Assembly (NCBI GenBank): GCA_946404585.1
Contig: CAMJEC010000003.1
Coordinates: 1 to 35,821, forward strand
DNA: 35,821 nucleotides
Reading direction: 5' to 3'
DNA from: an uncultured Caryophanales bacterium
GTDB taxonomy: Bacteria; Bacillota_I; Bacilli_A; RFN20; CAG-826
Shown here: in pieces, positions 14,588 through 35,755 of the stretch
Position numbering within the stretch: the stretch's first letter is position 1
Layout: every line of letters begins with the position of its first letter
Translations under genes and position numbers: made by a program
Notes under the pieces: generated by a model
What the model saw: the letters and a program-made list of their open reading frames with translations, nothing else
Told to the model about the DNA's origin: nothing
The model's database searches: none

Positions 14588-14664
14588 GGGCCCATAGCTC
14601 AGTTGGTTAGAGCGCGCCCCTGATAAGGGCGAGGTCGGAAGTTCAAGTCTTCTTGGGCCCACCA
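14588..14664 (+). tRNA. tRNA-Ile(GAT)
   Basis: Acceptor GGGCCCA/TGGGCCC, anticodon stem CGCCC-CTGATAA-GGGCG, encoded ACCA. Confidence 0.96.
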
Positions 14665-14675
14665 AATTGATTGTT

Positions 14676-14703
14676 AAGAAGGATGTCAAAGTCCTTCTTT
14701 TAA
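14676..14703 (+). terminator. Intrinsic terminator after tRNA-Ile
   Basis: AAGAAGGAT / GTCCTTCTT with T-rich 3' side. Confidence 0.7.
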
Positions 14704-14841
14704 TTTTTATCATCTCGAAGAGATTTAAATAACTCTTTGCGAAACTATCTAAAAGAAGAACAAAAAAGCGCTTTAAAAGTATTAAAATACTTGTAAGAGA
14801 ATAATATAACCGCTATTCTATATATTGCGTTCACAATTTTA

Positions 14842-14870
14842 TTGCTAAATAAAACGTAGTTTGTTATATT
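14842..14870 (+). promoter_or_regulatory. Promoter of the tRNA-Val/Thr/(Leu) unit
   Basis: TTGCTA, 17-bp spacer, TATATT. Confidence 0.75.
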
Positions 14871-14881
14871 ATTTAGGCGCT

Positions 14882-14956
14882 GGAGACTTAGTTCAGCGGG
14901 AGAACGCTTCCTTCACACGGAAGAGGTCGTAGGTTCGATCCCTACAGTGTCCACCA
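14882..14956 (+). tRNA. tRNA-Val(CAC)
   Basis: Stem/loop CTTCC-TTCACAC-GGAAG gives anticodon CAC; T arm GTAGG-TTCGATC-CCTAC; acceptor GGAGACT/AGTGTCC has a G4.G69 mismatch; encoded CCA. Confidence 0.87.
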
Positions 14957-14961
14957 AATTT

Positions 14962-15037
14962 GCCGTCTTAGCTCAATTGGCAGAGCAACTGATTTGTAAT
15001 CAGTAGGTTGTTGGTTCGATTCCGATAGACGGCACCA
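14962..15037 (+). tRNA. tRNA-Thr(TGT)
   Basis: Acceptor GCCGTCT/AGACGGC, anticodon stem ACTGA-TTTGTAA-TCAGT, encoded CCA. Confidence 0.95.
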
Positions 15038-15050
15038 ACTAAGTATTATC

Positions 15051-15072
15051 GGAGGGACACAATCCCTCCTTT
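15051..15072 (+). terminator. Hairpin between tRNA-Thr and tRNA-Leu (terminator or processing element)
   Basis: GGAGGGA / TCCCTCC stem followed by only TTT. Confidence 0.55.
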
Positions 15073-15081
15073 AATTTATAT

Positions 15082-15166
15082 GCGGCTATGGCGGAACTGG
15101 CAGACGCGCTAGACTTAGGATCTAGTGGGGCAACCCGTACAGGTTCGATTCCTGCTAGCCGCACCA
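15082..15166 (+). tRNA. tRNA-Leu(TAG)
   Basis: Acceptor GCGGCTA/TAGCCGC, anticodon stem CTAGA-CTTAGGA-TCTAG, long variable arm, encoded CCA. Confidence 0.95.
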
Positions 15167-15299: not shown

Positions 15300-15328
15300 T
15301 TGAATATCTATGTATAAAAATGTATATT
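15300..15328 (+). promoter_or_regulatory. Promoter of ABC exporter pair
   Basis: TTGAAT, 17-bp spacer, TATATT, followed by GGAGG RBS and ATG at 15350. A second candidate, TTGATA-17-TTTATA, lies at 15239-15267. Confidence 0.7.
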
Positions 15329-15349
15329 ATTGTAGAAGGAGGAAATAAC

Positions 15350-16261
15350 ATGGACCTTATTACAACAAATGAGCTCTGCAAATCATACAACAAAAAGCTC
15401 GTTATAGATCATGTTAATATGCATATTCCAGAAAGTAGCATTTATGGCTTTGTCGGTGAAAATGGCAGTGGCAAAACAACCATTATGCGTCTATTAACCG
15501 GTTTAGCGGAACCAACATCTGGAACATATGAATTATTCGGTCTAAAAAACAATGACCCACGTATTTACGAAAAAAGAAAGAATATATCCGCTATTGTGGA
15601 AAAAACATCTTTGGTACCAACATTTACCGCAAAACAAAACATCCGTTATTTTGAACTTTATACAGGTATCGAATTAACAGAAAAAGAAAGAGATGAATTA
15701 TTAGCAAAAGTTCATCTTCATGATGTTGAGAATAAAAAAGTTAAAAACTTTTCTCTCGGTATGCGTCAAAGATTAGGTATCGCTTTAGCGTTAGTTAGTA
15801 AGCCAAAACTAATGTTCTTAGATGAACCAATGAATGGTTTAGACCCAGAAGGTATTGCCGAATTAAGAGATTTATTGGTTGAATTAAATCAAAAAGATGG
15901 CATTACTGTTCTAATCTCTTCACACATTCTTTCAGAACTTGAAAAGATTGCTACCTGCTATGGCTTTATCTCTCACGGCAAGATTCTTGAAGAAGTTACC
16001 GCACAAGAATTAAAAGGAAGATGCCGTAAATCATTAATGGTGAAAGTTGATAAGCTACAAGAAGCAGAAAAAGCTTTGAAACAACTTAACATTCTTGATT
16101 ACAAAGTCTCACCTAATGGTGAAATTCAAATCTATGATAACGTCAAAATCCAAGACGTTATGGCGTGTTTAGTCAGCGCTGGTGTTAATATTTCGGCTAT
16201 TAATTCTGCTGAGGAATCAGTTGAAGATTACTATTTAAATCTTATTAAGGAGGGCAAATAA
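15350..16261 (+). CDS. ABC transporter ATP-binding protein (lantibiotic/drug-exporter type)
   Basis: GENGSGKTT, FSLGMRQRLGIA, LMFLDEPMNGLDP. RBS ggaggaaataacATG; the track start 15320 is upstream of this ATG. Confidence 0.92.
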   Translation: MDLITTNELCKSYNKKLVIDHVNMHIPESSIYGFVGENGSGKTTIMRLLTGLAEPTSGTYELFGLKNNDPRIYEKRKNISAIVEKTSLVPTFTAKQNIRYFELYTGIELTEKERDELLAKVHLHDVENKKVKNFSLGMRQRLGIALALVSKPKLMFLDEPMNGLDPEGIAELRDLLVELNQKDGITVLISSHILSELEKIATCYGFISHGKILEEVTAQELKGRCRKSLMVKVDKLQEAEKALKQLNILDYKVSPNGEIQIYDNVKIQDVMACLVSAGVNISAINSAEESVEDYYLNLIKEGK

Positions 16262-16262
16262 T

Positions 16263-17222
16263 ATGTCTCGTTTATTAAAAGCCTTCTTCTATAGGATGTC
16301 TAAAGACCTCGCATTTAGAATTACTCTCATTATTGGCTGTGGTATTGCCTTAATACTCTCCGTCATCCTTTTAGTGGCAGATTTAATGATGGATATGGAA
16401 GGCATCAAGCTATTGACTGGACATGGCATGCTAACAATGTCACTAAATCCAGCACAAAACTATGGCATTGCCATTCCAATTAACGTTGCTATATTCGTAG
16501 CTTTAGAATTCACACAAGGCACAATTAGAAACAAAATTATTGCAGGCCATTCAAAGTTTAAAATCTATGCCTCACTTTATATTTCTGGCCTTATTTTAGG
16601 CGCAGCACTCTTATTTGCCTATGTTGGATTCTTAACAATATTCGGCACAATCTTTGGTGGCTTTGATGTCAATGTCGTAACTATATTAGGCACTGGATTT
16701 GGCGCTGCGACTGTAGAATACATTGTTAAGTTTGTCATTCTATCTTTGCTAGCTTATACCACACTCATTAGTTACGCTGTATTTATCGCTACAGTATTTA
16801 GATCATTAGGCCCTTCCATTCCATTAGTGTTCGCTGCTGTCTATGGTCTCTTCTTTATTGCAATGATTGTGAATATCATCGTTGGTATTAATAAAGAATT
16901 CATGGATGGATACGAAGCAGCGTTAGTTATAGCTCAAGAACACGGAGATGCTGATGCGATTGCCGAAGCTGCAAAAGAAGTAGCGGATTTCAAACCAACA
17001 AACGATACTGTGCAAGCCATTGGTAATGTCTTTAAGTGCCTCAATCCTCTATATGGCCTTTCAGTCACAGATAGTGTTATAGTTGGTGAAGGCGAAGATG
17101 TGAAAGCGATTGCAAAGATGGATGACTTCACTTTCTATAGTGGAATTGCTAGCAATTTAGCATATTCTGCAGCATTCTTTTTCGGAGGTGCTTGCTTATT
17201 TAAGAAAAGAGATGTTAAATAA
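16263..17222 (+). CDS. ABC transporter permease paired with the upstream ATPase
   Basis: Multi-TM ABC-2-like protein starting 1 nt after the ATPase stop. Confidence 0.8.
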   Translation: MSRLLKAFFYRMSKDLAFRITLIIGCGIALILSVILLVADLMMDMEGIKLLTGHGMLTMSLNPAQNYGIAIPINVAIFVALEFTQGTIRNKIIAGHSKFKIYASLYISGLILGAALLFAYVGFLTIFGTIFGGFDVNVVTILGTGFGAATVEYIVKFVILSLLAYTTLISYAVFIATVFRSLGPSIPLVFAAVYGLFFIAMIVNIIVGINKEFMDGYEAALVIAQEHGDADAIAEAAKEVADFKPTNDTVQAIGNVFKCLNPLYGLSVTDSVIVGEGEDVKAIAKMDDFTFYSGIASNLAYSAAFFFGGACLFKKRDVK

Positions 17223-17251
17223 TATAGGAAAAAAATTTTTCTTAGCAAAAA

Positions 17252-17440
17252 TTGTCGGCTTAAACGTCTTATATATGAGAGGCGAACAAAAAGCCTCTTC
17301 CCTCAGCGCATTACAAAGATTAACATTTGTTATCTATGCCGACAGATAAAAATGCGCTAAACTAAAATTGTCTATTGTCTCTTTAGCAATAGAGTCTCCC
17401 TTTTTAAAGGTTACTGGTCCCCCGATCGGTAATCTTTTTC
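17252..17440 (+). ncRNA. Candidate orphan structured RNA of unknown family (5' end uncertain)
   Basis: Hairpin GAGGC/GCCTC near 17279-17298; P1 AGCGCATT (17305-17312)/AATGCGCT (17351-17358) enclosing ACAAA/TTTGT (17313-17317/17326-17330) and TATCT/AGATA (17331-17335/17344-17348); hairpin TCTATTG/CAATAGA (17371-17377/17387-17393); terminator 17406-17439. Confidence 0.55.
17406..17439 (+). terminator. Strong intrinsic terminator of the candidate ncRNA
   Basis: AAAGGTTACTGGTC-CCCC-GATCGGTAATCTTT: 14-bp stem with three G-T wobbles, CCCC loop, T-run. Confidence 0.85.
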
Positions 17441-17459
17441 TTTTAGCAGGTTTTCGTTT

Positions 17460-17465
17460 TATAAT
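17460..17465 (+). promoter_or_regulatory. -10 box of the serpin gene
   Basis: TATAAT downstream of the 17406-17439 terminator; -35 weak. Confidence 0.55.
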
Positions 17466-17495
17466 CGTCTTAATAGGTGAGAGGTGAAAAAAAGT

Positions 17496-18782
17496 ATGAA
17501 AAAAATAATGATGGCGATTGCCCCTTTACTCATCTTGACATCATGCGCTAATCAAGCAAGTTTAGCCAAACTAAATGAATTTGCGTTAAATAAACCAAAT
17601 AAAGCTTTTAATACCGTTCAAACTAAAGAACTAAATAAAGGCTATATTGATTCTTTAAAAGAGTTCTCTCTTGATTTCTTCCAACAAGCTAATAGTGGTA
17701 CGGATAAAAATCCAGTATTCTCACCTATGTCTATTGCTACATGTTTCTCTATGGCCTATGACGCCGCAGAAGGAGAAACTAAAAAAGAATTAGGAGAATT
17801 ACTCCATTACGATGAAAAAGCATTCAATCATCTTGATGAAATCAAAAATGCTTTATTAAGATCGGCGATTAATGACGCTAAAAAGAATACTTATCTAAAT
17901 ATTTCTCAATCATTTTGGGCTGATAATAATTCAACGATACATGAGGATTATTTAAAAACGCTTCAAGACTATTATTTCGCTGAAGCTTATCAAGGCGATT
18001 TACCTAACATGTATAACGAAGTGGCAGATTGGATTAACGATAAAACTAAACATTATCTCAACGTCAAAGGTGAAGATTTCCAAGAAATGCTCGCTAGTGC
18101 TATTTATGCACTTTTGAATACTGTTTATCTTAAATCTTCTTGGGTTAATGAATTCAAAGAAGAACTTAACTACAAAGGTGATTTCGCTAATCTTGATGCA
18201 ACTTCCACTAAAGTCACATATATGGAAACAAAATTAGAAGATTCATATTATTTTACTGGAGACGGGTATATGATTTCTTCTCTTCCTTTTGAACATGACT
18301 TAGAGTTTAGAATGCTTTTGCCAAATGTTGATACTGATTACGCTGAAGTATTTAATGATAGAACCGCTTTGGATAATCTCTTATCTCTTTCAACACATGA
18401 ATTTGGCGTACCCGCTAATAATAGTGGCCTTGCCCAATCAGGCACAGTTGAATATACAATTCCACAGTTAAAAGTAAGAAGTAAATTCGATTTAGTTGAG
18501 ATGTTTAGAGATAGAGGCATTGAAACACCATTTAAGCCAGGATATGCTAATTTCCCAAAATTTGATGGTGGATATATCTCAAAAGCTCAACATGAAGCAG
18601 GATTTGAAACAAATAATAAAGGCGCTGAAGGTGCGGCATATACAATCATTGTTGTATCAAAGGCTGGTATTCCAGAAGAACCAGTTAGATTTAAATTAGA
18701 CCGTCCATTCGCTTATGCGGTAACCACTAAAGAAGGAATTCCTGTCTTTATGGGTAAGGCAACAAGCCTTCCTAACGCGTAA
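17496..18782 (+). CDS. Serpin-family protease inhibitor, lipoprotein
   Basis: Lipobox LILTSC; NPVFSPMSIATCFSMAYDAAEGETKKEL; LNTVYLKSSWVNEF; hinge NNKGAEGAAYT; C-terminal DRPFAYAV...PVFMGKATSL. ATG at 17496 fits RBS GAGGTG better than the track GTG at 17484. Confidence 0.93.
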   Translation: MKKIMMAIAPLLILTSCANQASLAKLNEFALNKPNKAFNTVQTKELNKGYIDSLKEFSLDFFQQANSGTDKNPVFSPMSIATCFSMAYDAAEGETKKELGELLHYDEKAFNHLDEIKNALLRSAINDAKKNTYLNISQSFWADNNSTIHEDYLKTLQDYYFAEAYQGDLPNMYNEVADWINDKTKHYLNVKGEDFQEMLASAIYALLNTVYLKSSWVNEFKEELNYKGDFANLDATSTKVTYMETKLEDSYYFTGDGYMISSLPFEHDLEFRMLLPNVDTDYAEVFNDRTALDNLLSLSTHEFGVPANNSGLAQSGTVEYTIPQLKVRSKFDLVEMFRDRGIETPFKPGYANFPKFDGGYISKAQHEAGFETNNKGAEGAAYTIIVVSKAGIPEEPVRFKLDRPFAYAVTTKEGIPVFMGKATSLPNA

Positions 18783-34846: not shown

Positions 34847-34852
34847 AGTAAT

Positions 34853-34959
34853 CACTTCAGGGCAGCGAAAAGCGACCGGCGGTAAACCCCGCGAGCCTCA
34901 AGAGGAGGCAGGAACTTGTGAAATTCAAGTGGCGACAGTAAAGTCTGGATGAAAGAAGT
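34853..34959 (+). promoter_or_regulatory. FMN riboswitch aptamer
   Basis: CACTTCAGGGCAGCGAAAAGCGACCGGCGGTAAACCCCGCGAGCC...GGCGACAGTAAAGTCTGGATGAAAGAAGT matches the conserved FMN (RFN) core. Confidence 0.96.
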
Positions 34960-34967
34960 ACGTTTTT

Positions 34968-34993
34968 TAGGCCTTGGGAAAGGTCTATTTTTT
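34968..34993 (+). terminator. Riboswitch expression-platform terminator
   Basis: TAGGCCTT-GGGA-AAGGTCTA stem followed by TTTTTT, adjoining ATG 34994. Confidence 0.85.
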
Positions 34994-35755
34994 ATGAAAA
35001 GAAAATTCAGAAATCCTGTTGAGATGGTCACCAGGATTGCCACTCTAGCAATTCTTTCAGCGCTAGGGTTCGTATTAATGGCGTTTCTGCAATTTCCATA
35101 TCCATTTGCACCTTGGCTCAAGATCGAAGTCAGTGAGATTGTCACTGTTTTAGCCTATGCGCTATATGGGTTACCTGGTGGAATAACAGTAGCCATTATC
35201 AAAACACTATTGAATCTTGCGGTTCACGGACCAGTGGGATTAGGCATTGGTGATTTAACAGCCTTCATTACATCATGCATGTATATCTTAGGCTTGTTTG
35301 TCACCAGCAGACTGAGACTATTTAAAAAGGGTGTTGGTTTCCGTTTTATTGCTTATGGCATCATCAGCATCTTCGTTAGCACGATTATGACAGTGCTTAA
35401 CGCCGTTGTCATTACTCCTTCTTATTTGACGGTCTTTGGATCTGATCCTCATTTCTCAACATGTTTTGAGGATGGAGTTATTCAAAACACAGCTGCTTAC
35501 TTGACAGGCAATAAAGATATTACAGTTAATGGCTGGGGATATGTTGGTATTATTAGCGCTATTTATTTACCATTTAATTTTATTAAAGCTACACTTTGTC
35601 TTTTAGGTTACGAAGCGTTATTCAACCAAATTATCTTCTTGTTAATGAAAAGATCCCCATTTTTCCAGAAGTGGTTTGTGGGTGATATTTTCACTAAAAA
35701 AGAAGAGGAAGTTAATCCTGATCTTACTGTAGAAGAAGAAAAACCACAAAAATAG
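34994..35755 (+). CDS. ribU: Riboflavin ECF transporter S component (RibU-like)
   Basis: TM protein ATLAILSALGFVLMAFLQFPYPFAPWLKIEVSEIVTVLAYALYGLPGGI...; directly downstream of FMN riboswitch. Track start 34949 lies inside the aptamer. Confidence 0.93.
   Translation: MKRKFRNPVEMVTRIATLAILSALGFVLMAFLQFPYPFAPWLKIEVSEIVTVLAYALYGLPGGITVAIIKTLLNLAVHGPVGLGIGDLTAFITSCMYILGLFVTSRLRLFKKGVGFRFIAYGIISIFVSTIMTVLNAVVITPSYLTVFGSDPHFSTCFEDGVIQNTAAYLTGNKDITVNGWGYVGIISAIYLPFNFIKATLCLLGYEALFNQIIFLLMKRSPFFQKWFVGDIFTKKEEEVNPDLTVEEEKPQK

Follow-up and report, generated by a model that had tools for sequence, protein, structure and literature searches.

A structured RNA between a permease and a serpin gene

The stretch of DNA analysed here (the window, 35,821 nt of contig CAMJEC010000003.1 from an uncultured Caryophanales bacterium of the gut, whose genome we call G000) carries on its + strand the ATPase and permease genes of an ATP-binding cassette (ABC) transporter (open reading frames at 15320-17222; ATPase PF00005; permease 16263-17222) and, downstream, a gene for a serpin lipoprotein (17496-18782, ATG at 17496; Pfam PF00079, E 3.2e-56; N-terminal lipobox LTSC). 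The gap of ~260 bp between permease and serpin hosts a structured element, predicted to be transcribed from the + strand as a small RNA (sRNA) of ~161-164 nt (17277-17440), whose terminator would also end the ABC transporter operon. The sRNA appears to belong to the regulon of an extracytoplasmic function (ECF) sigma factor and would probably act on target mRNAs through a conserved C-rich seed.

The start of the RNA was placed from the -10 element and its end from the terminator; because 17242-17271 is its promoter, a start near 17277 is most likely. From 5' to 3' on the + strand, the minimum-energy fold contains a 5' hairpin, GAGAGGC/GCCTCT(T) (17277-17283 with 17293-17299), which is also found in the folds of the homologues G011 and G006; a central domain (17305-17358), in which the helix AGCGCATT/AATGCGCT (17305-17312 with 17351-17358) closes the two hairpins ACAAA/TTTGT and TATCT/AGATA; a hairpin TCTATTGT/GCAATAGA (17371-17393; 17371-17378 with 17386-17393); a single-stranded seed, GUCUCCCUUUUU (17394-17405); and a Rho-independent terminator (17406-17437) with a 14-bp stem, a CCCC loop and a T-rich tail (U-rich in the RNA). 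All of the helices described in an earlier sequence-only reading of this DNA, including the CCCC-loop terminator, are present in this fold, the energy of which is -47.9 kcal/mol compared with -31.7 +/- 3.9 kcal/mol for dinucleotide shuffles (z = -4.2; 0 of 200 shuffles as good). That reading had also assigned the element to no known family, and the search of positions 17245-17440 against the Rfam 15 covariance models, including 6S, raiA, tmRNA, RNase P, signal recognition particle (SRP) RNA, T-box and riboswitches, agrees with this, as it returned no match at the gathering score; the best sub-threshold matches were chance ones to snoRNA and miRNA models (E 0.022-6.2).

Conservation, promoter and regulon

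When 96 related genomes were searched at the DNA level, the region turned up in six species of the genus, counting the source species, and in each it was flanked by the same permease and serpin lipoprotein genes; two diverged copies (G004 and G006) were found by reading downstream of the permease in more distant species, where the layout is retained. The RNA is present in 8 of 16 species of the genus, is single-copy in each genome searched, and always stands in the order permease-RNA-serpin, with the permease orthologue upstream in all eight. When a covariance model built from the eight RNAs was run against 225 genomes of the family, eight genomes of one genus matched (E 6e-36 to 1.7e-15), the next matches being at E 0.012 or worse, and no copy outside the eight was accepted among these 225 genomes. 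The two best weak matches, in other genera (G219 and G020), were inspected and rejected since they do not share the layout of seed and terminator (other weak matches, E 0.29-0.96), and a weak DNA homologue in G033 was rejected as it lies inside the ATP synthase gamma gene. The named records in which the core of the RNA occurs belong to uncultured Bacillales, Erysipelotrichaceae and Bacilli assemblies, of which one comes from a ruminant stomach.

Across the six closer species, the last 84 nt of the RNA are 98.8-100% identical, with 64-98.8% identity in the 5' part of the RNA and 65.5-92.6% in the permease DNA (four pairs measured). The TCTATTGT/GCAATAGA hairpin is invariant in these six and replaced in G004 and G006, where the central domain folds differently as well; in G015, the central helix is AGCGCGCTT/AAGTGCGCT in place of AGCGCATT/AATGCGCT. 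Common to all eight are the 5' hairpin starting at RTGAGA, the 14-bp terminator and, within the seed, UCUCCCUUUUU, which is the only unpaired stretch conserved in all of them and is unpaired in the folds of G000, G011 and G006. The terminator differs in sequence between the two lineages, yet 100% of its cells are paired in the eight species; in two pairs both partners have changed, and in four a change on one side preserves the pairing. Covariation is claimed for the terminator only, because the central domain of G004 and G006 aligns poorly and makes their structure counts unreliable. The CCCC loop, present here as described, is kept in six species and replaced in two.

Upstream of the RNA, a -35 element TTAGCA (17242-17247, + strand) and an ECF-type -10 element CGTCTTA (17265-17271, + strand; AGTCTTA in G004 and G006, CGTCTTA in the other six) fit the regulon consensus TTTARCA-N17-[CT]GTCT[TA]A. 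The same element, TTTAGCA-N17-CGTCTTA and then RTGAGAGG, stands before both the RNA and the serpin; the serpin copy (17442-17472, + strand) is the only match to the pattern in the window, where 0.01 would be expected, and the serpin ATG lies 23 nt past its -10. The AGCA-N17 spacing is retained in the RNA and serpin promoters of G000, G015 and G004. The sequence-only reading was right that the serpin has a promoter of its own after the terminator, but the TATAAT that it named (17460-17465) is part of the spacer of this element, and reads TTTCAAT in G001 and TTCTTAT in G004 and G006; a sigma-70 promoter was rejected, as TATAAT is not conserved, whereas TTTAGCA-N17-CGTCTTA is. Homologues in eight species, compensatory changes in the terminator, the RNA's own promoter and terminator, and the separate serpin promoter together support the earlier proposal of a free-standing, previously undescribed RNA family, to which the shared ECF-type promoter and the likely mode of action are new additions.

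The motif is found in all eight RNA promoters and in promoters of ECF genes or operons, and its exact form has 29 matches in the 16 genomes of the genus, compared with 3 for the reversed pattern. In a whole-genome scan of G011, 15 sites scored 16.1 or higher (best reversed-control site, 15.6), and 14 of the 15 fall in intergenic DNA in front of a gene, mostly at a distance of 19-23 nt from the start codon. By eye, nine of these 14 were counted as lipoprotein genes, compared with a share of 11% of all genes under a permissive pattern (binomial P 3.5e-6). The site of the RNA itself scores only 15.5, and its assignment to the regulon therefore rests on conservation in eight species and not on score. 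Judged from these sequences, the motif marks a regulon of the serpin, other surface lipoproteins, membrane proteins and a sigma operon, and the RNA, the serpin and the surface lipoproteins appear to share one activator, an ECF-type sigma factor.

ECF sigma factors of this group are present in all RNA-bearing genomes. The motif stands 24 nt before the ATG of the ECF-A gene in six species; ECF-A was rejected as sole driver since it is absent from the RNA-bearing genomes G000, G011 and G015. ECF-D (sigma-70 region 2, PF04542, E 3.8e-11), alone or in an operon with a lipoprotein gene, likewise carries the motif, with a -10 of TGTCTAA. Seven of the eight RNA genomes have ECF-D, as do G005 and G014; six genomes without it (G002, G003, G009, G010, G012 and G013) have no RNA either. 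Among the ECF paralogues, ECF-D is the most likely driver. In G011 (C4:20500-24100, L201) and G000 (contig C69, L200), the genes for a lipoprotein, ECF-D and a 295-aa protein form an operon under a regulon promoter of its own; the 295-aa protein has one likely membrane span and no Pfam match, and is a possible anti-sigma factor. The leader of the ECF-D operon contains a 9-nt seed match, AAAGGGAGA, in four species, a near match in G015 and none in G004 and G006, which would allow feedback.

A second intergenic element with the same type of promoter (TTTAGCA-N17/18-CGTCTTA) is present on G000 contig C68 (L111:90-215), where two hairpins without an open reading frame follow, GTGGTTATCGCGGTAAATAACCAC and a CCTCC..GGGAGG terminator, with no Rfam match. 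It is also found at G007 C13:8434-8554, G008 C3:57430-57549, G011 C3:90415-90533, G014 C127:7555-7678 and G015 C13:19267-19390. This is a candidate second ECF-driven sRNA; the motif lies there inside a larger inverted repeat, and the element could be something else. Elsewhere in the window, four tRNA genes cluster at 14588-15163, flanked by the gene for ribosomal protein S9 and those of the ABC transporter, and a flavin mononucleotide (FMN) riboswitch (RF00050, 79.4 bits) lies at 34849-34964, upstream of an open reading frame at 34949-35755.

The seed and its candidate targets

The seed is an anti-Shine-Dalgarno sequence, being complementary to Shine-Dalgarno sequences, and in G011 its 8-mers perfectly complement 7-9 of 1106 translation start regions, compared with 0-1 of 3063 coding controls. 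A UCCC motif is conserved in the single-stranded seed of all eight species and in the terminator loop of six. In G011, the strongest predicted duplex (-22.6 kcal/mol, first among 1106 start regions) is formed with the leader of a MelB-type sugar symporter (PF13347), whose gene lies upstream of an alpha-galactosidase gene (Melibiase, PF02065). For the diverged RNA of G004, the orthologue of this transporter again ranks first, among 17 seed-matching start regions (-26.2 kcal/mol; next, -21.4).

In G000 (contig C60) and five other species, the transporter leader reads CATAATTT-AAAAAGGGAGAC-AAATTATG, with one extra base per arm in G011 (C1:113950-114030). It forms a hairpin whose stem holds the start codon and whose 12-nt loop, which contains the Shine-Dalgarno sequence, is exactly complementary to GUCUCCCUUUUU. 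Upstream of this hairpin, AUCGGGG could pair with the CCCCGAU of the terminator loop, and the mRNA GGGG and the RNA CCCC loop are both missing in G004 and G006. Upon cofolding, RNA and leader gain 14.0 kcal/mol (G000) and 10.9 kcal/mol (G006) over the separate molecules. The leader itself (L209, L294-L306) shows paired changes between species (CATAATTT/AAATTATG, CATAATTTT/AAAATTATG, ATAATCT/AGATTAT and GAATAA/TTATTC), and across the transporter leaders the start codon lies in or beside the stem of the Shine-Dalgarno hairpin. It is a conserved cis element, which may regulate the transporter with or without the sRNA.

Possible modes of action and relation to known systems

Here we propose that the element is a trans-acting sRNA of ~161 nt that forms the noncoding arm of the ECF sigma regulon and blocks translation of its targets through the seed, an explanation that we hold to be probable, with considerable room for doubt. 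The sRNA would have an ECF-sigma promoter and a terminator of its own, while the coding arm would consist of the serpin next to it, further surface lipoproteins, membrane proteins and the sigma operon. Upon activation of the sigma factor, the RNA would accumulate, and UCUCCCUUUUU would pair with the purine-rich Shine-Dalgarno sequences of target mRNAs, thereby blocking ribosome binding. The best candidate target is the MelB-type symporter mRNA, with its Shine-Dalgarno sequence in a hairpin loop exactly complementary to the seed. The RNA family, the promoter motif, the regulon and the complementarity can be read from the DNA; expression, the driving ECF paralogue, base-pairing in the cell and the sign of regulation are what we infer from them.

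Several observations weigh against this proposal. The seed resembles an ordinary anti-Shine-Dalgarno sequence, for which many matches are expected, and AAGGGAGA before ATG is about as common in the species without the RNA, so that it is no signature of RNA bearers, and ordinary Shine-Dalgarno usage accounts for some of the seed matches. The predicted targets in G011 show no enrichment of lipoprotein genes, which were rejected as a preferred target class. The leader's own hairpin explains part of its conservation, and G014, in whose 80%-complete assembly no copy of the RNA was found, retains this transporter leader. In G004 and G006, the extended match would require opening of the terminator stem. 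With respect to the sigma factor, G001 (74% complete) has the RNA and no ECF-D match.

The most serious competitor is that the RNA is real and ECF-driven and acts by protein binding or another route, its Shine-Dalgarno complementarity being incidental. Conservation of 84 nt, including helices, goes far beyond the needs of a 12-nt seed, and chance anti-Shine-Dalgarno matches are common; the seed is nevertheless the only unpaired stretch shared with the diverged RNAs of G004 and G006, and the same transporter ranks first in both lineages, and we therefore regard such a route as possible but rather unlikely. The element could also be the structured 3' end of the ABC transporter operon, that is, a 3' untranslated region with terminator, maybe processed to a stable fragment, that has no promoter of its own. 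The permease stop codon lies only ~20 nt before the -35, and TGTCGGC (~17253-17259), in the predicted promoter spacer, perfectly complements GCCGACA (~17338-17344), in the loop of the TATCT/AGATA hairpin, a pairing open only to a read-through transcript. This complementarity, of which 5-7 bp are retained in six species, is unexplained if the spacer is untranscribed. It is shortened in G015, however, and missing from G004 and G006, and in all eight genomes the RNA follows a promoter of the regulon type, with a spacing that is constant wherever it was measured, which makes an operon 3' end unlikely.

In all eight genomes, the serpin gene is immediately preceded by a strong structured element that includes a terminator, which would also suit a cis-acting leader, a riboswitch or attenuator whose terminator controls read-through into the serpin gene, and 84 nt at 98.8-100% identity are typical of aptamers too. 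We consider such a leader improbable, given that in all eight a separate regulon promoter for the serpin follows the terminator (20-23 nt before the ATG where measured), that G014 has serpin and promoter without the RNA upstream, that no antiterminator pairing was seen by eye, and that the conserved unpaired stretch is an anti-Shine-Dalgarno sequence. A small protein-coding gene is very improbable: a leaderless reading frame from RTGAGA at the predicted 5' end is open for 24-32 codons in six of the eight species (24 in G000, 32 in G004), but it has 4 codons in G001 and is frame-shifted to 15 in G011, breaks for which it was rejected; the peptides of the two lineages are unlike, and in the source lineage the strongest conservation lies past its stop codon.

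The present analysis adds an RNA family and an ECF regulon, neither described before, in Bacilli that are represented here by metagenome assemblies alone, ties a serpin (protease inhibitor) lipoprotein to a stress response, and suggests that the sRNA arm of the ECF response, known from Proteobacteria and Fusobacteria, exists in Bacilli too. It also yields directly testable pairs, namely promoter and sigma factor, and seed and transporter leader. Among the papers searched, none described an ECF-driven sRNA noncoding arm in Gram-positive bacteria, although absence is not thereby proved. More tentatively, and with the balance somewhat against it, we speculate that some Bacilli have an ECF-sigma surface-stress regulon in which at least two sRNAs with the same promoter couple serpin and lipoprotein output to translational shut-off of sugar uptake, by a linear seed acting on a Shine-Dalgarno sequence in a hairpin loop.

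Two features place the RNA among known types: an ECF-type promoter directly upstream that is common to the sigma regulon, as in ECF-sigma-dependent sRNAs, and a conserved single-stranded UCCC-type seed complementary to Shine-Dalgarno sequences, as in C-rich trans-acting sRNAs. MicA and RybB of Enterobacteria, which are Hfq-dependent, are proteobacterial and target outer-membrane protein mRNAs, and no sequence relation to the new RNA was seen. What they have in common with it is that they serve an ECF (sigma E) envelope response as its noncoding arm (PMC11005410). FoxI and FoxJ of Fusobacterium nucleatum share both the ECF-driven noncoding arm and a C-rich seed, FoxJ being ~156 nt (PMC11005410), but differ in phylum, cell envelope and sequence, and target outer-membrane proteins such as FomA. 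Within Bacilli, RsaE/RoxS and FsrA (Staphylococcus, Bacillus) pair with Shine-Dalgarno sequences through C-rich UCCC seeds (PMC4132741), and have other regulators, structures and targets, while the new RNA has no Rfam match. The LhrC family of Listeria, likewise from low-GC Bacilli, is induced by cell-envelope stress, as the new RNA would be, and blocks translation through UCCC motifs that lie in a stem-loop, in a single-stranded region and in the terminator (PMC4132741). LhrC is multicopy, driven by the LisRK two-component system and targets lapB, whereas the new RNA is single-copy with an ECF-type promoter and a distinct sequence and fold, and the promoter and the lack of an Rfam match place it outside the LhrC family. 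By analogy, it may be a C-rich, envelope-stress sRNA that works like LhrC and FoxI/FoxJ; its family is new.
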